Shown: in pieces, positions 33,234 through 47,643 of the stretch
Numbering within the stretch: the first letter of the stretch is position 1
How the letters are laid out: the number at the start of each line of letters is the position of its first letter
From: Roridomyces roridus
Lineage: Eukaryota; Basidiomycota; Agaricomycetes; Agaricales; Mycenaceae
Direction of reading: 5' to 3'
Assembly (NCBI GenBank): GCA_029378245.1
Contig: JARKIF010000061.1
Coordinates: 171,110-235,109 of the forward strand
DNA: 64,000 nt
Translations under genes and position numbers: made by a program
The notes under the pieces: model-generated
The model's database searches: none
What the model saw: only the letters and a program-made list of their open reading frames with translations
What the model was told of the DNA's origin: nothing

Positions 33234-34591
33234 AATAATATCAGCAAAACTTAAGTTGCAAGTGATTTTACCGTCACCGCAACTTATATATAAGTTTTCT
33301 CAAGTCTTAAGTTCTCACCTCCCAGCGGGGTATCTCCACGCCACACTACCCAGACTGTTCCTGCAACTTAACTGAACTTAAGTTCTCAATCCCCCGAGCT
33401 CCAGTTGCTCTCTATCATCTCAACTACACAAGTTCACTCAAAGTTCACTCATGGGGAGGCCAGCCCCAAGGGTTGAGCCTTGAGGCTTGAAGTCTTGCCC
33501 CTTATAGGGGCCTTGTTGAATCATGTATGTCGAGTGATAGTCCCATTGTTCTCTTTGATTATTCATCCATTGTCCTTTACGCGAACAATAGACACGATGT
33601 GGACCAACTGAACGATTTTAATACCGCCCCGCGTGTCAAGACCAAGGACCCAATTGCACTCCGACAAAACCAGTGAAACGCAAGCAACCAGAGGTGATTG
33701 AAGTGTTCGACAACATCGTGAACAAGTAGCCATAATATGGTATGCAAATGGTTTAACTTGGGGGGAGGGGCCGCTGCAAGCACGGCATATACGAGAACTT
33801 CCAGGGGTTTGAGCTTGCCGGATCTGACTGAAAGGCAAGAACAGTGGAAAGAGACACATTAGGTGTGTGGCTGTGCGCCAACTTCAAGTTGGTGTGATGT
33901 GACAGATGTGATGATGGTTAGTGATCACTGATGAAATCAGATCACAGTGCACAAATGCTTCAGACTTTCTGCCACCAGTGGACCTAGCACTGTAAAAATA
34001 ATAGCCGGAGCACAACAAACTCTGTATCTTTGTCAACAAATTACAATGCAGCAGATATCTCACCCAGAAGTTTTGGAACCAGTGACTTAGTAGTCGGATT
34101 TTGTGCTTGGCCCACAGAGGAGTTTTACCCACGACAGTGCAGGTTGTCCTGCAGAATTCTACAGCAGCGGCAGGGGAGCCAAATTTGTGGGTAGGAATCA
34201 GAATTTATTGTCCGTGGGCACTGGGCATGAGGATACAGATTTTAATAGGCAACAGCACACATCACAGAATTCATCCCATTTTGACTGCCACAAATTTTCT
34301 CAATTTTTTCGGAAGCTGCCATACACATGAAGACATCCTAAGCTTCAAGACAACCCATATTGTGAAGTCCCAGTACCTTTGGTGAACTTGAGATGAGCTG
34401 ATCACAAAAAGTAAATAGATCAACAATAACATAGACACGGTGGGAGATGGCAGTTCAGACCTGCAGAGTGAAATTCAATTTCAACAGCGAAGAGTCTGCC
34501 CTGAGATTCCCAGAAGGATTAGTGCAAAACTGAATGCTCCAGAGCGAAAAGAAAAATGAGCTGATGGGAGCTGTCAAAATCAGTGATTGTG
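33234..34591. other. AT-rich spacer, target side of the KDZ element
   Basis: About 1.36 kb with no supportable gene. At 33240-33390 the word cttaagtt/aacttaag recurs five or so times in both orientations, suggesting a degraded small element. 33.5-34.58 kb is AT-rich with stops in all frames. The last 8 bases (34584-34591) are the left target duplication of the KDZ transposon. Confidence 0.6.
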
Positions 34592-34840
34592 CACCTACGA
34601 AGCCCTTATATCCCCACTAAATAGAAGGGACGGTGGGGGGTACCGTCCATTCTGGTTAGAGGGGATAGAGCCATCTGCCCCATACTGCGATAAAGTTGTC
34701 AATAAAGGCTGCAATAAAACACATAAAACTGCAATATATAGTAGGTAGAGTATGTAGAGTACAAGTACACTACATATGCTGCAATAAACCCAATAAAGTA
34801 CCTCATACCGAGGACTTGGTGAGACTCAAGTCCTTAGCTT
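34592..34840 (+). repeat. Left terminal inverted repeat of the KDZ element
   Basis: Pairs with 47060-47308 in inverted orientation. Shared words from the tip inwards: cacctacgaagccctta; ccccacta; ggacggtggggggtaccgtc; ttagaggggata; ctgcaataaa; gtaggtagagta; aataaagtacc; ggacttg. It includes a hairpin at 34623-34653 (12-bp arms, ggggggt loop). Confidence 0.9.
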
Positions 34841-35044
34841 AGTAATACAGTCGGAAACGGAAGAAAGAATTCCAAAACGGGATCAAGAATGATTCATCGA
34901 CATTATATCTAAGTACATCATTCACGGCGGCGTATATATATACAGATGGACACAGGATCGACTATGCAAACAGGTAAGATAGGGGACGTTCATTGAGAGC
35001 AAGATGGTAGGGAAAGCAAGAAGGTGAGCGATACTTGAGGAGGA

Positions 35045-37741
35045 CTATGCCGACACGATACGGCGGCCAGGCGGACCACCACCGCGGCTGCGGACGGTGT
35101 TGGAGCGCACACCACGTCCGGAAACATTGTTCCAAGCAGGACGGGGAACGATGACTTTGGGGGGTGGGATGTTTTCCTTCTGGCGTGGCTCTTCCGCTAC
35201 CTCACCACCCGTCTTGCGCTTCTTGGGCACGGTGGACTCGTCATCATTGGCACCCTCCGATGCCCGCTTGCGCTTTCCACCAGCTGTGCTGACCTTGGAG
35301 CCCGACGCCTTGCTCGCACCACCCTTCTTCCCCGCCCCCGCCTTCCCTACAGCACTCTTCTTGACGCTCTGCCCCGACAACGTGCGTTTCGACTCCGCAA
35401 GCGCCCTGGCCGCAGGCGGAAGCTTGCGTGCTTTCGTGGTAAACTTGGAGGCGGCGATCTTGGCAGCGAAGAGCTTGGAGGCAGAGGATTTGGAAGTTGC
35501 TGCGGTCGAGGACGACTTGCCCTTGCCCTTCCCCTTCCCCGGAACCACATCCTCCTCCTCACTCGAGCTCTTCTCCTCGTCATCTTCATCTTCATCATCA
35601 TCACCATCATCGGTCTCATCCTCGTTAACCCGACGCGACTTGTTGCGAGGCGGGTTCGTGCGTGTCGGCGGGGTAGGTTCCTCCTCCTCCTCCTCCTCCT
35701 GCTCCTCTTCTTCCTCGTCATCGTTGCGAGCCTGCCCACGATCGGAGCGAGGTGCACGGGGCTGGACCGTGCGGTGCTTGCCCCCAAGGTCAGAGCGCGA
35801 CTGACGCTCCGTTGGAGAAGGTGCGAGGCCAGCCTTGATGACCTTCTTGAAGCGCTTCTCCTCCTCGGCTTGCTCGGTGGGTGTAGCACGCTTCCAGAAG
35901 CAGGTGCGGTCGCGGAGGGCGTGGTAGACGAGGCGAACGTCCTCACTGACACTTTGTTGAGCCATTCGCTTCCACGGAACACCCTCAGGCCACCCAACAA
36001 TCATAACGCCCTTCCCGTAAACCATCACGCGCAGGTAGTTCTCGTAGTTGATAGCAATATTTGAGCGACCAAGAACATCAACTGAGAACTTGATCAGCAT
36101 GACAGAGGAAAGAGGTGAGAAGGAAGACATACTGAGATTATCCTTGAGCAGACCGGCGGAGATGACACGCATCTCAGGGATGGACACGGCCTGGACGGAG
36201 CCTATGATACAATGAGCTTGTTTTCAGCAGCAGCGAGAGCGGCGGAGCTTACCAGATGGCCCACGCTGAATCGCCCACAACTCGTACATTGAGCAAAAGC
36301 GCCGTTGGTCGCGGTTGAGGACCTCAGGCACAAACTTGAGCGCGCCGTGTGATTGTAGGGTACGGGTCTGAGCAGCGTCATGGTGGTCGGTGGGAGCGAA
36401 GCACGCAAAGCCAATGATGCCGGAGCGGTCAGCGAGGAGGTCCATCTACACGCAAAGGAATTAGTCAAGCCCACAAGCAAAACGAAAGAAAAACTCACCT
36501 GGTCCTGGACATGGTCCAAAGTATGCTTCACATCAAGTGCTGCCTTGATATTGTCACCACGAACACCGTCTTTCATTAACTTGCACTCTTCTTCCAGCTC
36601 CTTGATCGCCTCCTCCACGTCCTCGGGGTCAAGGTCATTCAGGAGCGAACAATCCTCCTTGATCATGGCCTTCGCCTCGATCATCCCAATGCGAGAGCCA
36701 ATCGAGACCTAAGACTTTGTCAGAACAGCGGCCAGAAGGTGAGCAAAGAGAGTACAAACCTTCATTGAGCTGCCGCATTACCACACGGACTTTGGCGTTG
36801 TAGCTACTCGGATTGCGCTTGTGCTTCAGACCGGCCCCATTGAAGATACGACGACGCATCTCCTTTTTTGTCACCCCATGACGAGCCGCCATCTCCGGCA
36901 GCATATCCTCGATGCCCTTGCGGACCTCGTGAACATCTTCAGCAAGCGACCTGAGTTTACCCGCCTTGGCTTTGCGTTTGAGTAGCACCACCGCGTCTGC
37001 GTTTCTCTTGCCACGGTACCGCACGCGAGAAGGGATGATTGGCTTGTGAGGATTTCGCGCAGCATGAGTGTTGGGAGGGGCAGTGGGTGGCTCCATCAAG
37101 CTAGGAATGACGGTGGAGTTGGGCGTGTCGGTGGAGACAACAACGGTGCTGCCAGACACGTTGGGAACGACGGTGGAGTTGGGTGTGTTGGTGGAGACGA
37201 CAATGGTGCTGCCAGACACGTTGGGAACGACGGTGGAGTTGGGCGTGTCGGTGGAGACGACGATGGTGCTGCCAGACGCGTTGGGAACAACGGTGGAGTT
37301 GGGCGTGTCGGTGGAGACCACAACGGTGCCGCCAGACGCGTTGGGAACAACGGTGGAGTTGGGCGTGTCGGTAGAGACAACAATGGTGCCTCCAGATGCG
37401 TTGGGAACGACGGTGGAGCTGGGCGTGCTGGTGGAGACAACAACGGTGCCGCCAGATGCGTCGGGAACAACGGTGGAGTTGGGCGTGTCGGTAGAGACAA
37501 CAATTGTGCCTCCAAATGCGTTGGGAACGACAGTGGAGCTGGGCGTGCTGGTGGAGACAACAACGGTGCCGCCAGATGCGTTGGGAACGACGGTGGAGCT
37601 GGGCGTGCTGGTGGAGACAACAACGGTGCTGCCAGACACGTTGGGAACGACGGTGGAGTTGGGTGTATTGGTGGAGACGACAATGGTACTGCCAGACGTG
37701 TTGGGAACGATGGTGGACGTGTCGTCCAGTTCAGTAGACAT
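35045..37741 (-). CDS. KDZ cargo protein with 20-residue repeats and charged tail
   Basis: Proposed exons: 36760-37741, 36499-36708, 36253-36445, 36133-36201 and 35045-36081 (about 830 codons). The first ~215 residues are 10-11 copies of a 20-residue Thr/Val/Pro/Ser repeat (of the type STVVPNASGGTVVVSTDTPN). Then comes a basic helical region (RYRGKRNADAVVLLKRKAK; GVTKKEMRRRIFNGAGLKHKRN; SYNAKVRVVMRQLNE), an acidic helix (LDPEDVEEAIKELEEECKLM) and a conserved module (MDLLADRSGIIGFACFAPTD..., NYENYLRVMVYGKGVMIVGWPEGVPWK). The C-terminus (~330 residues) is poly-Asp/Glu, then Ser/Lys/Ala-rich with nuclear-localisation-like KKRK motifs. I recognise this architecture only as a protein type seen beside KDZ transposases, probably nucleic-acid binding; no enzyme motif. 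The exon 1/exon 2 junction leaves the frame one base out, so either that junction is misplaced or the gene is damaged. Confidence 0.65.
37098..37725. repeat. 60-bp coding minisatellite, about 10.5 copies
   Basis: Eleven occurrences of a 60-bp unit, spaced exactly 60 bp and about 85-95% alike, encode the 20-residue repeats at the N-terminus of the cargo protein on the minus strand. Differences between units are mainly at synonymous or Ala/Val, Asn/Asp positions, and no unit has a frameshift, so the reading frame has been kept during expansion. Confidence 0.95.
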
Positions 37742-38693
37742 TTTGATATTCTACAGTGCATTGTCAGCATTGTTGTCGTCGAGGCCTGTATTGAGCTGCT
37801 CACCAACAAGAGGGCGGGGAAATGAGAGAAAGAGAGAGGAAATGGGGGTCAGTTCGCGAACGCGCTGCAATAAAAGAGTAGCCAGCCCAATGTTGACTGC
37901 CAGTGAAAAACTTTATCCCGGTTAGCCCGCGGAATGCATGTCGGATGAATTTACATACCTTGGGCAGGGCGGATGGTCCAGAACACGAAGAAAGAATTGA
38001 GCAACCAGAAGGCGCCACACCCATGTAAATCGACAACATGAGGAGGAAGATCTGCGAGTTCCTCTTTGGTGGATGCTACGAAGCAAAATGAAGAACATAC
38101 CTGTAATGGCCAATATCCCTGAGCCCCCCACCCAAGGATCGAAGAGACAGACCCATGCAGACTCTCTGGCAATAATGCGCCACCCACAGTGACCAGCTCC
38201 GTCCACGGCGAGGGCTGTTACGTGTAGATGTCGCTGTCGCATGTATCCAGGGACAAAGGCGTTCCGCCTCTTCTCGCGCTGAGCTAAAGGTCGCCGTGAC
38301 TTGATGGTTGCTTGTTGGCATGGTGGTTGAGCATGCACGCCGTGCACGCAGACGGCGAGGAAGACGTGCTCGAGCTGAGCGGTGAGATGTGCTGGCAAAG
38401 CGGAGAGTAAACAGAAGTCCTCATTCGGATGTTTGTTCTCTTGCCCCTTTCGGATTTTCCTCTCTCTGACCCGTTTTCGACTTTGCAATCAAAGGCATTT
38501 TCAATTCTATTTACATTTTAGCTACGTAGCTAGTATGCGATTTTGGTAGGTAAAAAATACAAGTATGTACAATCTTTTGGGACTCGAGCAAGATGAATAG
38601 ATGAATCAAGAAAGAAAAAACAGGCCGCCTCGCATGACTCCCCACCCAAGCCTCGCCCGCTGCACTCGCCGCACACTCTCTCCAGACCCGAGC
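37742..38693 (-). other. Unresolved stretch between two KDZ cargo genes
   Basis: On the minus strand, 38.49-37.96 kb has long open segments in two frames. One reads STKEELADLPPHVVDLHGCG and then AFWLLNSFFVFWTIRPAQ, ending at a good donor (gtatgt); another, upstream, contains WRIIARESAWVCLFDPWVGG. Linking them needs a 25-base intron (gtatgttcttc..cgtag), which is too short, so I leave this as a possible damaged or mis-modelled sixth gene. The rest is non-coding. Confidence 0.35.
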
Positions 38694-39480
38694 CTACAAC
38701 TCCGAGAATCCGATGAGCGCCTTGTGATGGCGGGAGCCCATGAGAGAGGGAGGGATGAGGTTTTCTGCCTGGGCTGCGTCCTTCGCCTCCTGCTCCGAGA
38801 TGAATAGCGTGCCCTCGATGCCACGGACAGCCCACATGATGCGAGCATAGGCAGGTGGCTCCGCATCCATCTGCGACCAAACCTGCTCAAATTCCTCGTC
38901 CTCGTCGCTGGTCGGCACATAATCAATGCTGACGGAGGAGACCGAGGAGGACGCGTGAGAGGGCGAGGCGGCAGATGCAGCAGCCGTGGGCACGTTGATT
39001 GAGAGCGAGGGGAAGATGGGGGTTGGGAGAGTTGGGAAGATGGGGGGCGGGACGGCAGGCATGGGTGCAATGGTCGGAGCAAATGGAGCAGGCATGGGGG
39101 CGGCAATGGGGGCGCCGATGGGGAAGGCGGTGGGGCCACTGAACCCCGGAGGGCAGTCGGGCAGAGGGCAGTGCGGGTGGTGATACCCGCGGCAAAGCTT
39201 CTCCCATTTGAGGAGAATGCCGGAGAGGGAGGCGTCAGAGCGCTGTTGCTGCCCTGGGTGGCCGTCGGTCTGCTCGTTGGCACTTGCTCTGCGAAAGTTG
39301 TTAGAACCTATAAACGAAAAAGAAATGCGTAGCGTACGCAGAAGTGAAGATCCCAACGTGGCGCCCAACACCGACTGCGAAATAGCAGGCACCTGCACCG
39401 GAGATCAAGGTCCCAGGGGTGTGCCAAAGGTATGGCTGACAGATGATTTTGTCGACATTGGTAGAGATAATGCTGGACAT
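38694..39480 (-). CDS. KDZ cargo protein with two RNase H1-N-terminal (viroplasmin)-like modules, 245 aa
   Basis: Exons 39338-39480 and 38694-39288 (intron 49 bp, gtacgc..cgcag) give 245 residues from ATG 39480. Residues about 17-75 (YLWHTPGTLIS..ACYFAVGVGRHVGIFTSA..QTDGHPG) match the caulimovirus-viroplasmin/RNase H1 N-terminal fold (FYAVxxGRxxGIYxxW..), which binds RNA/DNA hybrids or double-stranded RNA in RNase H1. It is followed by W..LCRGYHHPHCPLPDC, a ~70-residue Pro/Ala-rich linker and an acidic patch (PTSDEDEEFEQVW). A second weaker copy follows at the C-terminus (RIMWAVRGIEGTLFISEQEA..SRHHKALIGF). No catalytic RNase H domain. Probably a nucleic-acid-binding accessory of the element; role unknown. 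Confidence 0.75.
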
Positions 39481-39938
39481 TGGCAAGGGCGAGGGCAGGG
39501 CGAGGGAAGGGTGGGGAGTGGGGAAACGAAAAAGACGTCGCCGCGTTAATAAGGCTGCCAGAATTCTAGAAGTCTGCCGAATTGAGATCTGAATCTGCAG
39601 CAAGGTCAGTTTAGTTTGCGGTGGCGACGGGACAAGAACGACTTGAATACGTACGTACTGCTGCATTCGAGAACAATTTGAGTTTCAGAGGGCTCCATGG
39701 ACGTGTTCGAGAACATCCAGAGCTGGATGTGGTGGTAGGCAAGAGAGAGTAATGTTGATCGGCTTCCAAAACGGGAGCTTCCGGCAAAGTAATCGCTCAG
39801 GCATGTAGAGGAGGAGCAAGCATTTCTAGCTACATATTTACATTGTACAGAAAATTTGTTTCTAGCTATATGTCGTACAAAAAAAAATCGTACCAAGAAA
39901 CCAGACCGTCGCACCCAAAAAAAATGCCGACTCCGACG

Positions 39939-40884
39939 CTACTGCTCGCCACGCCTCTGCTTCACCCGTGATGCATGCCTCTTCTTCCTCTGCGACACAT
40001 GGCCACCGTGATCGACCCACTCGTCGCTCTGCGGACAGACGCAGACACACCCCGGGCAATCTTGGAAGCCACAGCGGGGACAAGTCGGAAAGAAATGGCC
40101 ACCCTCGTGGGTTATCCAATCGGTCGACGCGTCACACATACATGTGCACCCAATGCATTCCTCGGAGAAGCAATGGGCGCAACGCATTGGGTGTGCTGGG
40201 CGGGTGAAGATGTCAGTGACAGGGGAGCAGGGTTCTGCAGGGAAATTGGTAGTGAGAAGGTCCTCGTCCTCGCTTTCGGCAGCATGGATTGCGGAGAGGG
40301 AAAGGCCAGCAATAAAGGGGGTCGTACGGGGAGCTGAGGCAGCTTCTCGCTGGCGGCGTGCCGGAAGATGCTTCTCGTAGACCTCCTCTTTACGCTGGCG
40401 GCTGGAATATGTTAGTACCTGCCTCGACAAAAGAAATGGGACACGCACTTGGTGGTGGCCTGCTTGGCCTTCTCCTCTCGGGTAGCTGCCTGCGTCTCCG
40501 CCAATTTTCTGCTCCAGCAGATGAGAAGAGACACTTGTAGGTAGTTTCAATGCAACGTACCGGTCGCGATAGCCCTCCGAGTGTTGAGCAGCTTTGCGCT
40601 TGGCCTTGAAGTGTGTGATGGGACTTTTAGCCAAGGAAGCTCGTTTGCTACGCAGCGTGAACCCAAGCAGGAAGAATGAGATGGAGACGCACCGTTGCAT
40701 GCGCTCTCGGGCCTTTCGACGCCGCAGGTCGTGGTTGCTAAGAGAAACGCTTGGTCAGACAGGCATGAATGTCGACAGCAAATCTCAGGCAGACGAACCG
40801 ATCCTCGTATTCTGCCTTGGATTTCTTGCGTCGCCGCTCCTTCTCAGCAGGCTCCAGAGGCGGACGACCCACTGGGCGGGGCAT
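39939..40884 (-). CDS. KDZ cargo protein: AT-hook-like, basic helix, tandem Cys/His clusters, 246 aa
   Basis: Five exons (40799-40884, 40693-40737, 40561-40647, 40449-40508, 39939-40401), all leaving phase 2, join to exactly 246 residues. N-terminus MPRPVGRPPLEPAEKERRRK resembles an AT hook (PVGRPP) followed by a highly basic helix (RNHDLRRRKARERMQRKRAS) reminiscent of bZIP-like basic regions. The middle is Lys/Arg/Gln-rich. The C-terminus holds two tandem clusters with identical spacing, C-x2-C-x4-C-x2-C-x-C-x-C, each followed by W-x-x-H-x-(x)-GGH or close variants (CAHCFSEECIGCTCMC; CPRCGFQDCPGCVCVC). Likely zinc-binding DNA- or chromatin-contacting protein of the transposon. I do not recognise the Cys cluster as a named domain. 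Confidence 0.8.
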
Positions 40885-41397
40885 GGGAGGCCAAGTGTGA
40901 GCTGGTTGAGGTTAAGGTTGAGGCTGGTTTCGACAGAGGATCGAGTAGGAAGAGAGAGAGTAAGCGACAAGTGTAAATACGAAACCTCTTTGGGGGTACA
41001 ATATCAGTTCCCGAATCAAAATAAATCATCTTTTAATCTGGCTCCATCGTTCCAGGAGGTCTATGGCCTCAGCAATTTTATTGAACGAAGTACATATGTA
41101 GATGACCTCCCAAAAAAAAAACCAGCCTCGTGGGATGCCGACCTGACTTTAAATAAAATAAATTGTCCTGACGAACAAAATCAGTTAAAACGCTTCAAAA
41201 CGGCCGGTAGATAGCCTGGAAAGATACCACCAAGAAATGAGGAGAAACGGTGCAAGGAATAATGAGGTGGCAAAAGATGTTCCCGAATCAAATACCTGTT
41301 CCCGAAGTAAATCAGCCCTTCTTCATCTCAAGAATTCCATCCTTTCGCACAGGGAGTGAGCGCAAAGATTCTATTCAACTATATACTGATATGTTGA
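40885..41397. other. Spacer within the KDZ element
   Basis: About 510 bp between the start of the Cys-cluster gene and the stop of the dioxygenase gene. AT-rich, with a repeated ttcccgaatcaaa / ttcccgaagtaaa word (about 41012, 41281 and 41300). It should hold the promoter of the Cys-cluster gene. No gene seen. Confidence 0.5.
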
Positions 41398-43451
41398 CTA
41401 CTTGGGACTAAATCGCTGCTTCAACTCGTCCAGCGTCGTGAAATACGACAAGCCCTCCTCCCAGCGAGTCTCCGCCGCCGCCTCCTTTTCTGCTTTCTGC
41501 TCAGCGCTCGCCGTGCGTTTAAACGCGTCGTCCGTCATATTCCCGTTGGATGCCCAACGAAACAGAGCACCCGCGGTGTATTGGGTGAACGAGTGTCGAA
41601 TTTTGCCTGGGGCGATCGGAGTATTCGAGTGGGTGACGATTGAGGAGGGTACGAGGATGGTAGAGCCGGGAGGGAATCGGATGATAAGCTTGAGTTCCCA
41701 TAAGATGAGATGGCCGCCTCGGTCTGGATTGAAACGACCAAGCGCGGTGATGGGGCAAAGGCCTGCCGCCATGTTTCCGAAATCGAGGTGCTTCTCCGTC
41801 ACAACATTGACGAAGTTGAAGGTACATGCGGCGAAGACGCTGTGGGGAAAGTTCCATTGCAGGTCCTTGTTCCACTTGAGGAGGTCGTCCTTGTTTTGTT
41901 GGTACCGAGCGAGGAGACGATGAGCGTATATGTACATCAGCACTGCACAAAAATGAGCGGCTGGCAGATCAACAATAAAAAACGCACGCATAGTGAAACC
42001 AACGATGCGGCCGAAATACTCATGGGCCTTCAGTTCGTCGGTTACGGCCTTGTTCTGTGGATTATTTTGAAGAACGCCCGGTTCCTGCAGTGAGGTAAGC
42101 AAAATCCGGCTGAAGAGGTTATACACTTACCCCCTGGCCGCCTCCGAAGGATGCTCCGCAAGAAATAGGAATGTAAGGTTGCTGCGCACGACGATGGTCG
42201 TAGTCGTCATCCGAGACGTCGAGCTCTTGCGCTGCGGCATCCATCTTTGCCGCAGCACCGTCGGTGACAATCTGCCACCCTTCGCGATCCCTCGGCTGGC
42301 CACCCAGTATCACGATGATGCGGCCGTGGCAGTCGACAATAGGAATGGTGATTCTATATTGCAAATTAGTTTGGAACGACGGTCCGGGTTGTTGGGACTC
42401 ACACTCCTAACCAGGGAATGTACCGGAAGCCTGGTCGGCCCACTAGCTGGTCGATTTCCTCCTGAGAGAGGACCACGTCACCCATACCCGTGTCGCCCCG
42501 CTGGATGACAACCAAGTCGTCCTCCATGTCCATGTCAACGTGTGGATTGTACTGGCTGCTGCGGTTGCCGATCCACGCTGGTTTGCTGTGGGGAAGGTCG
42601 GCGGCGTCATTGGGTAAATGGAGCGCCGCTTGAACTGCTTCGTGTGCGCGGCGAGTGTGAATAGCCTTCCGCCTCGGGTCCCCGGATGCCAATGCAGCGG
42701 CAAGGCGCTTTTTGTTGCGCTTGAAATGTGATTTGACCTTGCCATGGTGGGTAGCGTTGTCGGCAGCGTTGACGACAGCGTTGACGAGGGTGGTTGTGGT
42801 GGAGGAGGACCCGTGGCGGCAGTCAAACCGCTTGACCTTGTCCTTGATTTTGCGTCGTTGTTTGGCGGAAAGGTTGGCGTCGAGGAGGTGGGCAGCGTGC
42901 GGGTTGGTGGTACTCATGGGAGGGTTGGCGTTGAGGAGGTGGGCAGCGTGAGGGTTGGGGGTCGTGAGCGTGATCATGGGGGTGGTGGACGTGGTAGTAG
43001 TTGTAGTGGTATCCGTAGTCGTAAATTCATGAGTCGTAAAGTCGTCTGGGAGGTGTGTTAGAAGCTGGATCGTTAAGTGGAAGTTTTGTTACACACCGTG
43101 AAGACTGAGCTCCTCCAGCCCCGGAATTACAACCTCCCCAGGCTCCACATTCTCACCCGACTGCGCGCGTTCCTTCAAGCAAGTCTGGAGACGTTCGTGG
43201 GCGTCAAAGTGTGGGACCTCAATGGTGAGCCCCAGTGCAAGGTCAAAGGGTGAATATTCTTTGTTGGAACGGAGCCGCCGGCGTGGCTGCGGGGTATAGC
43301 CTGCAGCTCAAATGAATTAGTCAAGATTTTGAAACGGAGGGAGGAAGGAAAGCCTGCGCCAAGTTCCGCGTGGGACCTCTTTGCAGGCCATGCTCCGGGT
43401 CACAGGGTCGTGTCCCTTCGCAAGGAATGAGAATGGGCACTCACCAAACAT
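41398..43451 (-). CDS. TET/JBP-family 2-oxoglutarate/Fe(II) dioxygenase, 572 aa
   Basis: Six exons (43445-43451, 43097-43300, 42403-43045, 42131-42353, 41988-42084, 41398-41942) with consensus splice sites join in frame to 572 residues. N-terminus RRRLRSNKEYSPFDLALGL is followed by a poly-Thr linker, a basic region (AKQRRKIKDKVKRF..KSHFKRNKKRL), then RYIPWLGVITIPIVDCHGRI and SCGASFGGGQGEPG. The double-stranded beta-helix core carries the iron triad H443-x-D445 (EKHLDFGN) and H496 (IVTHSNTPI), and R507 (IRHSFTQY) for 2-oxoglutarate. Family members in mushrooms oxidise 5-methylcytosine to hydroxymethyl-, formyl- and carboxylcytosine in DNA. All catalytic residues are present with no stop or frameshift, so the enzyme should be active. 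Divergent from the KDZ transposase across 165 bp. Start chosen at the ATG giving a 7-base first coding exon; this tiny exon is the least certain part. Confidence 0.9.
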
Positions 43452-43616
43452 CCCCGCCGCCAACGTTGAGGTAGAACGAGACACAGAAGGAAGGAAGAGC
43501 GTGAAAGACAAGCGAATAAAGGCGGCCTAGACCGAGTACGGCAACTACGTCAGCAAGTCACATGACCCTGCCGTTGTTGACGCATCTTGCCAAGTCGCCG
43601 CTCCCTCATAGTCTCG
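43452..43616. promoter_or_regulatory. Shared divergent promoter of dioxygenase and transposase
   Basis: Only 165 bp separate the two start codons, which face away from each other, so one region must drive both. It contains gcgaataaag, tacgtcag (CRE-like) and cacatgac (E-box-like). Shared control of transposase and demethylating enzyme is an inference from this layout. Confidence 0.6.
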
Positions 43617-46600
43617 ATGGTCAAGGGCAAGAACAACAAAAGGAAATGGCTCCTTACCGGCAGCGACGAGCCTCCACAGAATGCCTACACGCCTGCAGTC
43701 GTCAAGAAGCTCAATCTGGGTCCAAAGGCCCTGGCTGAATACGAGGCGGAGCAAGCCATGAAGAAACGGCAGGAGTGGGAGGGTAGGCTGCTGCACGCTC
43801 ATACCAGAGGCAGCTTCTGACCTTTGCTCAGATATGAGTCAATCCACGCGAAACAAGATGCACGTGCTGGCCGAATTATTCGACGACGACGGCTTTAACC
43901 CTGAGGAGGCTCTGGCCCAGGGTATCCCCACTCTGGACAATATTCTGGATGGGAGCGCGCGGGCAGAGCTTAGCCACGCCGGCGGGGATCTCGATCAGCA
44001 CGGTAACCAACAAGACGACGACGATGGAATGTTTGAGGAAGGGATTGAGGAGGATCATCGGCAGAGGTGCGTCCTGCTGCTTTCCTCTTCATTGCAGCAA
44101 ACTTACAATGGCATCCAGGTCTCACAGAAAGGACTGGCGCACGCGGCGTGACCGCACCATCCGACGAACCGACGCATTCAAAATTCAGATGCGCTACATG
44201 GCCACCGCTTACTCAAAATACACAGCGGGTGAACCTCTTCCAGAGTCAAGGGCTGGCGACCTACCTGAGACCTTCAATGTGCTTGTAATTGATCTCTTTG
44301 GTATGCCACTACCACTGTATTGCAATGACTTTAGCGCTGATCGCTGTGAGCAGAAGCTCGACAGGAGACTGTCGTCTTGCCCGTTGGTAGCGGGGGCTAC
44401 GCGTCGGCACTGCTCAGGATTGGGTTGGTGCCATGCGCGCCATGGAAACCCTCCGTTGTAATCACTGCGCGCGTGCTCGACATGTACCGCCATTCACTCA
44501 TTCACTCGGACTCTCTGCGATCTCCACGGCGTGAGTCATCCTCACTCCATATGTGTTTTGTTACTCACAATTAACAAAGGTACCTATGCGCTCATATCTT
44601 CACCAGCAGTTCTCCATCGCATATGATGTCTATCTCGAGCTTCGGCGCAGTATTGACAATCGGGTTCTCCAACATCTTGGTCGCGACGGCCCCGCGTGGC
44701 GCATGAAAAATTGCTGCCCAGCCTGCACCTACAAGCTCGAGGGTGAGGACGACCTCATTTTTGGGATGTTGGTCACCATGGACGGGAATGATTCCCTCAA
44801 GCGGGTTCTCCGACGAAAGGTGGATGGTGGGGATGATCCAGGGGACCCAAACGACCGTCCGGACAACCGGGATGCGGGGGACGGGTATTACCTGCCGCGA
44901 GAGCAGGTGGACGCATGGGCAAAGCGGAGGTTGGCCAATATCCTGCCTTCTGACGATAATGTAAGTCATCTGCTCCTCTCTCGTCCGAAGCGTATCTTCC
45001 TGCAGGGCCAGGAGAATCCGTGCAAGGAAAAATGGAAGAACATGACAAACGACATAACGTCGAGGATGTGGGGCATATTTGACGAGACAGGAATATTCCT
45101 CTGTCTCTGTCGCCATGGATTTGCCTTGGTCGTCGTGGATATGCTGCGCAGTGGCGAGCTGTGTGTCACAGTTCATAATCTCTGAGCACAACTAATTAAT
45201 TCACAGTTCTAAATATCCTCTTGCTGTCGTCGAGTGGCTGCTGGAGCATCTCGGCATCAAGCTCGGTGTCGGGTATGATATCGGCTGCCACTTTTGCACA
45301 ACCCTCAAGAACAGCGAGCTTGGACCAGCGGCAGAGGCGGCTCAGTTGCGCATGCTCGTTGGAGCATTCCATGGCCACGCGCACAATCGTCTGTGCCAGG
45401 TGTGCTTTCTTGCGCTGTACATCAAGGGTCTCGGCATCGAGGATCTTGAGGGTTGCGAGCGGGCGTTCTCCAAGACCAATGGACTTGCGGGCTGCTGTCG
45501 CCGGGCCAGTCGTTTCCATCGACAGCAGGAAATCACCGCCTTCCTGAAGCATCAAGACACATTCGAGACATATTCGTCTCTCAGTACGTTCTTTCGTACA
45601 CTATCTTCGAGCACAACTGACCTTCCTCCTCTTGTAGGTAAATTCCTTTGCTCCAACTACGAACAAGCTCTGAAGATTATCGAGGAAGAGCCAATCGTGC
45701 GGAAGCTCATGTTGGAGGAGGATGTCATCGACGGAGCGGAGTTCGAGCGTGCTCTTGCCGAGGAGAAGGAGTATCTCACCGAGTTGTGGAAGACGTCCAA
45801 GAAGGCGGGCGAGACTACGGAAACTCGTTATGTATCCTGTCTGGAGACCTTTGACGCCCTCAAGTAAGTCATCCCATTCGCACTGGCATTTGTACTGACC
45901 TTTCCTGCAGATTGAGAGCGGGAGAATGTCGTGTGGTGGCGCGCCGTTCGCGAGGAGATGACAGCGCATTCACACCGGGTCGTACCAAAGCGGAGATTGA
46001 GTTGAGGCATGCGGAGGAGAGGATGGACCGAGCAGCGGCGGTGCTGGAAGGGCTTGAGCTTGAGCTCGGAGTGCTTGAGCGTTGGAAGGAGGATGATCCG
46101 CGCTTTGTGGAAGCCCAGAAACAGGCGAGGGAATTCCGATATCAGCAGGCCTTGGACCGTCTGGAGCTGCTTGTCGTGGAGCGTCTCTTTGAGCTCACGA
46201 AGGTAAATCAGTCTGGTACAGGTGCGTAATCATATCCACGCAGTCCAGGCTTCTTTCTAACGAATTACAGGCTATAAAATGCGTACCCATGTGGCAAAAT
46301 CCCTGCAAGCTCGTTCCAAAGCCGTACGAACCGCCGTTGATCGATACAACGCAGCGGCAGCGGCCGTGATCCCACCCAAAGCTCCCCTCAATATTGAGCA
46401 AGTGCTCGAATACACCTTTGTCGCCGACTTCGATTTGCTCCGGCACAGCACTCACGATGTGGAGGGAAGAACCTGGTCTCGTCCCGCGTTCCGCTCGGTG
46501 ATGAATCGGTACTTTCGCATTGAGCGCGCACGCGAGGAGATCAAGCGTCTTGATATCGAGATACGCCGTTTCGTGACTTGGATGCAGGATGAGCGTGCCT

Positions 46601-47025
46601 TCCTTCTTACACGCGAGGCAGCGCTTCGTCGGACGGATGGGAAAACGGAAGATGCGGTCGAGGCGGATCGGGTGCTCGCATTCCACATTGCAGAGTATCG
46701 CCACCGTCGGGGCCGCTTTGATGCCCTGCACATGAGCCGTCTGCAGCAACTTGAGCGGCGCTTGGGTGGTCGATTTACAGGGTCGTTGGAGCCGGGTAAG
46801 GCGGTCAATGGTGTGGAGGCAGATGTCTCCGACATTGATATGCTGGAAGTGGAGGAGGAGGACCGACTGTTACTTGCAGATGAAGGGTATATGGAGGAAG
46901 ATCATGGGAGTGAGGACGAGGGGGATGACGCGCACGATGAGCAGGTGTCTGAAATGATCTATCAGCTGGCAGGGCTCGGTGTAGACACCGACCAGCGGGA
47001 GGAAGCCTCGGTAGATCTGTATTAA
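43617..47025 (+). CDS. KDZ transposase, about 988 codons, one apparent frame change
   Basis: Ten exons: 43617-43782, 43832-44066, 44119-44300, 44354-44530, 44580-44960, 45006-45160, 45207-45583, 45638-45863, 45911-46221, 46271-47025. Recognised by family hallmarks in order: SHRKDWRTRRDR; RIGLVPCAPWKPSVVITARVL; YLHQQFSIAYDVYLELRR; CCPACTYKLEGE..MLVTMDGNDSLKR (first acidic residue and CPAC metal motif); EKWKNM..GIFLCLCRHGF; VGYDIGCHF (second Asp); FHGHAHNRLCQ; LEGCERAFSKTNGLAG (catalytic Glu); KFLCSNYEQAL; coiled C-terminus and acidic end. At about 44491-44505 (cattcactcattcactcgg) the frame of VLDMYRH does not run into the conserved F..TLCDLHG frame; the exons sum to one base too many. Either a small indel has disabled it or the sequence has an error. 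Everything else is open. Confidence 0.9.
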
Positions 47026-47059
47026 TCCCAATTTGGTATTCTTCTTCCGGTGCATTACT

Positions 47060-47308
47060 AAGCCGGGCACTTGGTCAATCTCAAGTCCCCAATATGGGGT
47101 ACTTTATTGAGTTTATTGCAGTCTATGTAGTGTAGTGGTACTTGTGCTACTCTACCTACTGTATATTGCAGATTTATACATTTTATCGCACACTTTATCG
47201 ACGTCTTTATTGCAGCATGGGGCGGGTCACTTTATCCCCTCTAATTAGAATGGACGGTACCCCCCACCGTCCATTCTAGTTAGTGGGGACATAAGGGCTT
47301 CGTAGGTG
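47060..47308 (-). repeat. Right terminal inverted repeat of the KDZ element
   Basis: Inverted partner of 34592-34840, starting a few bases after the transposase stop. It contains a perfect 12-bp-arm hairpin at 47247-47277 (agaatggacggt / accgtccattct, seven-base C-rich loop) matching the one in the left repeat. Confidence 0.9.
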
Positions 47309-47643
47309 TGATTGTGGCCGCAAAAAGGAAAGTGCACAGCCGGCTTAATCAAAAGTCTGAATTTACTTGAAACCTCACCCAAAATTTGGCCCACTGAAAT
47401 TCTAAAAGAACGAGAACTTAACAAGTGAAGTTCTCGTAATATATGACACACCCACTCATTTGGCTACACTTTCAGACAAAACCCCGACGGTTTGGAAAGG
47501 CTCTATGCTATGCAGCTTTGAATTTGAATAGACTCAAATCCGGTAGCGGACCTTGCCGCTTGTCGGCCCTACACCCTTATATGGACCCGCGTGCGTGATA
47601 AGGATCGCTCCGTTGATGTCGGCGACACTCAGGGTATGGAGTC

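Follow-up and report, generated by a model that had tools for sequence, protein, structure and literature searches.

A KDZ transposon of Roridomyces roridus with a TET/JBP-like gene and a set of partner genes that follow it

In mushrooms, KDZ transposases and TET/JBP dioxygenases are reportedly linked in TET+ Kyakuja and Zisupton elements, a linkage said to go back to Iyer and colleagues in 2014. We analysed a transposon of this kind in Roridomyces roridus (Mycenaceae), in a window of 64,000 nucleotides (C460:171110-235109), and searched the R. roridus genome (90.8 Mb, 501 contigs) for its relatives. The element spans window positions 34592-47308 (12.7 kb; positions without a contig name refer to the window). 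It carries a TET/JBP-like gene (the TET gene below) and three partner genes in the order A, B, C, TET on the minus strand, and a KDZ transposase gene diverging from them on the plus strand. Likewise, the TET+ Kyakuja/Zisupton elements, which are of the KDZ class and have an AG-type TET, hold a KDZ transposase and a TET/JBP gene in one mushroom element; their CA..TG ends recur here, as do the 8-bp duplications of Zisupton. According to Kojima 2025 (PMC12730594), AG-type TETs are close kin of CcTET with Asp at position 337 and Gly or Ser at 331, whereas the protein studied here matches by fold only and has Cys and Asn there; the duplications of the two Kyakuja families of L. bicolor measure 7 bp and terminal inverted repeats (TIRs) are absent from them, whereas here the duplications are 8 bp and the TIRs 227 bp long. 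Two TET+ transposons of other transposase superfamilies and hosts also carry an extra gene, namely PHISTA, with an unnamed third protein, and IS3EU, with an alpha-kinase gene in a fixed order as here (PMC12730594). That part of the paper mentions no partner genes for KDZ elements, and the available parts of PMC9674265 and PMC8889193 hold nothing on partner genes.

Across the genome, the partners follow TET and not the transposase class. Loci were built from exon matches, with short exon matches at already listed loci omitted; the TET loci come from 87 of 177 candidates scored, and the KDZ loci from 150 of 209 matches listed. This yielded at least 58 TET, at least 103 KDZ, 38 A, 11 B and 20 C loci. 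At 38 of the 58 TET loci, A, B or C lies downstream on the same strand; wider limits give 39 TET loci with a partner, and at 29 of these a diverging KDZ match is found upstream as well. Gene C lies on the same strand within 3 kb downstream of TET at 18 of its 20 loci, where uniform placement expects 0.02, and gene B does so at 9 of 11 (0.01 expected), or at 10 of 11 within 6 kb in either direction. Gene A does so within 6 kb at 21 of 38 loci (0.08 expected). KDZ loci with TET nearby have C at 16, B at 7 and A at 15 of 46, compared with 1, 0 and 2 of 57 for KDZ loci without TET. Lineage history explains part of this contrast, in that the TET-less KDZ exons compared are far from that of the window: among twelve, one is 50% identical (C469:1279k), nine are 22-36% identical and two gave no match.

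The earlier note had looked to recurrence of all five genes within the same termini as support for a joint system. Partners do recur downstream of TET in this genome, but the complete set is present only in the window and in a sister copy on contig C201. TET loci with C number 18 and those with B or A 22, and the two groups meet only at these 2 loci: the five-gene set is chimeric, drawn from a lineage with A/B (lineage 1) and another with C (lineage 2). Ten lineage-1 loci have KDZ exons that are 79-83% identical to that of the window, and the C24 exon is 66% identical; among 11 lineage-2 exons, seven are 29-34% identical and four gave no match. In a TET tree of 55 sequences (L036, at 109 aa, was left out), the ten TET-C sequences included form one clade (ultrafast bootstrap, UFBoot, 100). 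Outside this clade and within the A/B lineage (88), the copies in the window, C201 and C235 cluster with C480, C212 and C334 (98). Gene C has therefore entered a lineage-1 element.

A block at 39576-43607 (best change points) is nearly unchanged between the window, C201 and C235. Identity to C201 is 91.2% at 38600-39576, 98.6% within the block and 78.3% at 43607-44300, and the comparison with C235 has the same right edge (98.4% inside versus 81.1% beyond). The change-point likelihood gain was 200, whereas 20 shuffles, evaluated on a coarse grid, gave 9 at best. The left edge falls about 95 bases upstream of the start codon of B and the right edge 10 bases short of that of the transposase, and the block includes the single spacer from which the TET and transposase genes diverge. 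As the spacers inside the block are also 98-99% identical, against 79% (560/708) for the A-B spacer outside, constraint does not explain it. Synonymous divergence is 0.02-0.04 inside the block, whereas A exon 5 and B reach 0.25-0.26. The ratio of non-synonymous to synonymous divergence (dN/dS) is 0.149 for B relative to C201, 0.25 for A exon 5 and 0.32 for TET, while the values for gene C (0.37 and 1.1) come from very few changes; three transposase exons compared with C235 give 0.07-0.11, at a synonymous divergence of 0.6-1.2. Judged from these sequence comparisons, the backbone is old and seems functionally maintained, and the TET+C cassette was recently exchanged between backbones.

The TET gene (41398-42977, minus strand) encodes 494 aa in exons 42977-42403, 42353-42131 and 42084-41398; all splice sites in the TET, B and C models are GT-AG. 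Its assignment as TET/JBP-like rests on fold and profile evidence, partly from homologs. The fold predicted for a close homolog is a double-stranded beta-helix closest to TET enzymes, with the residues for iron and 2-oxoglutarate in place. The HxD, distal His and Arg ligand set is complete in the window protein (H365, D367, H418, R429; N370 and Y435 are further residues noted) and in 104 of 114 homolog rows, and 115 of 117 lettered rows keep the D of HxD. Asn occupies the CcTet 331 position, as judged by motif spacing, and the hTet2 Asn1387 position, in each case in 114 of 115 lettered rows. A homolog search with the TET protein gave 341 matches at E 1e-3 or better. Among 88 homologs scanned at E up to 10, 2OG-FeII_Oxy_3 was matched in 10 and Tet_JBP in 6, the best Tet_JBP match not below E 0.02. 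The complete TET/JBP enzyme described in the earlier note is upheld by fold and profile evidence, but not by Pfam, where the gene reaches 11.7-13.5 bits against a cut-off of 34.9. Neither Pfam nor PDB sequence searches identified it: the PDB library includes CcTet of Coprinopsis cinerea (7vpn, 8jkk), yet no sequence match appeared at E 1, and the profile matches at E 10 were unrelated. Structure comparisons give 10-15% identity to known TETs (13% for CcTet). A PF12851 profile search over the R. roridus genome found no match, as was equally the case for the control genomes, so this search is insensitive.

Three other assignments were tried and set aside. A generic 2-oxoglutarate (2OG) oxygenase was dropped, as TET structures score clear of the AlkB, FTO and PHD rows. 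The AG-type, CcTET-like and expected from earlier work, failed on the absence of a close CcTET sequence relation and on Cys at 337 and Asn at 331. The PE-type failed because the protein has HxD where PE-type proteins have HxE as their hallmark. PE-type TET/JBP proteins, from transposons of Agaricus, Laccaria, Gymnopus and Pezizomycetes, are likewise strongly diverged, with Agaricales members recognised mainly by predicted structure (PMC12730594).

We consider it reasonably probable that this KDZ-class cut-and-paste transposon carries its own anti-silencing kit. The TET enzyme would oxidise 5-methylcytosine (5mC) on element DNA and so lift silencing of the transposase promoter; in the simplest reading, which follows a proposal in Kojima 2025 (PMC12730594), it would keep the shared promoter spacer open. 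The partners, namely the basic Cys/His protein C or its counterpart D, B with its RNase H1 N-terminal domain and the basic-tailed A, may bind DNA, chromatin or RNA:DNA hybrids, thereby positioning or assisting the enzyme, and a swap of C for D would change where it is placed. The earlier note had proposed a transposon-encoded anti-methylation/chromatin system; the linkage of the partners to TET in a fixed order fits this, but the anti-methylation role of the enzyme and its partners is one we infer from sequence. More tentatively, Mycenaceae KDZ elements may hold a fourth type of transposon TET/JBP that has not been described before, a target-directed demethylation system of TET, an exchangeable DNA-binding C or D and an RNA:DNA-hybrid-binding B, in which the swap would re-target the enzyme and TET+partner cassettes would spread between backbones by recombination. 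The system bears on why mushrooms carry dozens of transposon TET genes, and this one genome offers natural experiments: TET elements differ in their partners, a chimera has both, relatives without TET share the termini, and a site occurs both filled and empty.

Several observations weigh against the anti-silencing reading. The structure model is that of a homolog, P0002, not of the window protein, and its Foldseek template modelling scores (TM-scores) against CcTet reach moderate values, 0.34-0.38 by query and 0.48-0.54 by target. Ala stands at the CcTet Arg393/hTet2 His1904 position in 116 of 119 lettered rows and, by motif spacing, Cys at the CcTet Asp337 position in 117 of 118, so the substrate may differ from 5mC. 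The window copy is probably not autonomous, as its transposase frame is interrupted. Of the 58 TET loci, 8 have neither a partner nor a KDZ match near and a further 11 have a KDZ but no partner match, and the counts are not independent because duplicated contigs account for some of the loci. A speculation in Kojima 2025 has AG-type TETs lacking target specificity (PMC12730594), in which case the partners need not target.

A plainer account holds that TET and its partners are ordinary cargo of KDZ lineages with no joint function, their linkage reflecting shared ancestry and amplification and the exchanged cassette plain gene conversion, which requires no selection. Some loci are indeed duplicates, such as C342, C162 and C57, which represent one insertion, and for 15 of the 38 gene-A loci a search of 8 kb around them shows no TET match. 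However, C, B and A follow TET and not KDZ, and the linkage holds for C proteins 40-63% identical, and A proteins about 44-55% identical, to those of the window. B and A exon 5 also show low dN/dS, and gene C, having changed lineage, again lies directly downstream of TET. We regard this account as possible but doubtful. The changed positions of CcTet Asp337 and Arg393 would also suit an enzyme that makes a modified base to mark or protect the element, in the style of phage TET/JBP proteins, instead of removing methylation, and the non-fungal sequence relatives found are phage proteins of phrog_24024. This is unlikely, given that the Pfam matches of 13 pieces scanned include no glycosyltransferase or other modifying enzyme, and that Asn is kept at the position of hTet2 Asn1387, which contacts N4 of 5mC in hTet2 (PMC11040006). 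It is more improbable still that most copies of the TET-like protein lack catalytic activity and that its role in transposition is one of DNA binding or structure; the low identity to known TETs and the 10 of 114 rows without a complete HxD..H..R set would agree with this, but the set is complete in the remaining rows and in the window protein.

The exact termini and 8-bp duplication reported by the earlier note were confirmed. TGATTGTG stands on both sides of the element (34584-34591 and 47309-47316), CACCTACGAAGCCCT opens both ends, and the TIRs of 227 nt at 34592-34818 (plus) and 47082-47308 (minus) are 84% identical. Joined with one TGATTGTG, the flanks are 100% identical over 575 bp to C57:1144052-1144626 in this genome. 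The boundaries are therefore exact, and an element-free version of the site exists, either never occupied or vacated by exact excision. TIRs with an 8-bp target duplication, the Zisupton pattern among KDZ transposons, are also seen in C201 and C301. Roughly the first 415 bases of the joined flank belong to another repeat with many listed copies at 76-94%; in the window, this host repeat surrounds the element at 34301-34591 and about 47317-47440. Past the insertion site, collinearity of C57 with the window is partial. Pieces at 99% identity (C57:1115519 and C57:1107751) keep their mutual order and rough spacing, yet their distance exceeds the expected one by about 27 kb, and both are repeats; C57 may thus be an allele or a duplicated locus, and either fits. 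The roughly 27 kb extra in C57, from about 1115500 to 1144000, may reflect further indels between the contigs or other repeat copies.

The transposase gene (43617-47025, plus strand, several exons) contains the KDZ transposase domain PF18758 (97.2 and 140.5 bits, cut-off 26.6; E 1.4e-27 and 8.2e-41). The KDZ transposase of the earlier note is therefore present, but its frame, which in an autonomous copy would be uninterrupted, is broken near 44490, where the exon is about 29 bp short of C235; splicing around the gap may be possible. Copies were found by searching the genome with either TIR and then mapping. The sister copy, C201:339088-349582, is flanked by a duplication of its own, TCGAAAAC, and about 2.2 kb of its transposase is absent. 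The clean duplications around this copy and the window copy would suit mobilisation by another copy's transposase as well as damage suffered after insertion. The copy at C235:421711 onward has TET, C and a transposase with about 0.7 kb extra, its likeness to the window stopping after gene C, and C480 is a diverged relative from the TIR searches.

The TIR searches also matched C469 and C1, and seven other loci were examined for content: elements of 5-6.7 kb in C301, C342, C162, C57, C442, C456 and C13 resemble the window element only at their termini and in short pieces. Their 8-bp duplications are readable by eye, and since C342, C162 and C57 share one insertion, the seven represent five distinct insertions. 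Among the matches listed, none inside these loci is to KDZ or TET, so they look non-autonomous, and the contrary case named in the earlier note, the same termini around a transposase alone, was not seen among them. Outside the C442 element, at a distance of 86 bp, there is one KDZ match. The interiors of these elements (L013, L014, L015, L016, L017, L020 and L021) hold filler sequence. At C57:1347237-1348088, a remnant of the TET end (85% identical) has a gene C exon 0.5 kb downstream and is probably a relic of a window-type TET+C pair.

Gene A (35045-37741, minus strand; 5 exons in this model) has 60-bp tandem repeats at its start, a conserved middle and a basic/acidic tail. Its exon 2 has 2 nt less than that of C201, breaking the frame of this model, and C201 differs by 1 nt in exon 3; the NCBI model P0128 (822 aa) matches the query in full, and gene A may be intact. 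A homolog search gave 5 matches and was probably spoiled by the low-complexity tail. About ten 60-bp direct repeats at 36984-37823, encoding a 20-residue unit rich in Ser, Thr and Val, form the start of gene A, and C201 is shorter and different there. Gene B (38694-39480, minus strand; exons 39480-39338 and 39288-38694) encodes 245 aa with an RNase H1 N-terminal (Cauli_VI) domain at residues 33-65, which passes Pfam PF01693 narrowly (22.1 bits, cut-off 21). The start of B was also seen by eye in L035, L037 and L043, where the B search missed it. Gene C (39939-40884, minus strand; 5 exons, 238 aa) has a basic N-terminus and two Cys/His repeats (CxxCx5CxGCxCxC..HxGGH). The NCBI model FB45DRAFT_1041456 (P0121) joins C and B; we treated them as two genes because C with both repeats also occurs in P0123 and, from Mycena, in P0127. 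Homologs of C gave 7 matches, the single one outside Roridomyces being from Mycena olivaceomarginata. Gene D is the other small basic gene, found in the slot of C at lineage-1 loci; it was read by eye in L034, L035, L037-L040, L043, L044, L048 and L050, with a D-like stretch in L018, L031 and L033. D is weakly similar to the basic start of C (36% over 47 aa, with E 4e-6 against a database of three sequences), and the other pairs reach 0.006 or weaker.

As 341 homologs were found at E 1e-3 while Tet_JBP reaches 6 of the 88 scanned, many transposon TETs probably go uncounted, and fungal TET counts are likely too low where such genes escape Pfam. The phage family phrog_24024, which includes Caulobacter phage Cr30 gp129, shares the HxD..HxNTPI..R core with the TET family described here, in phage genes without transposon context. 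Three of its genes (L103:3170-4498, which is Cr30 gp129, L105:3200-4546 and L104:3089-4507) all score above the Pfam Tet_JBP cut-off, two being annotated as SNF2 DNA repair and one as hypothetical; this makes the family, whose function is listed as unknown, most likely one of TET/JBP proteins.

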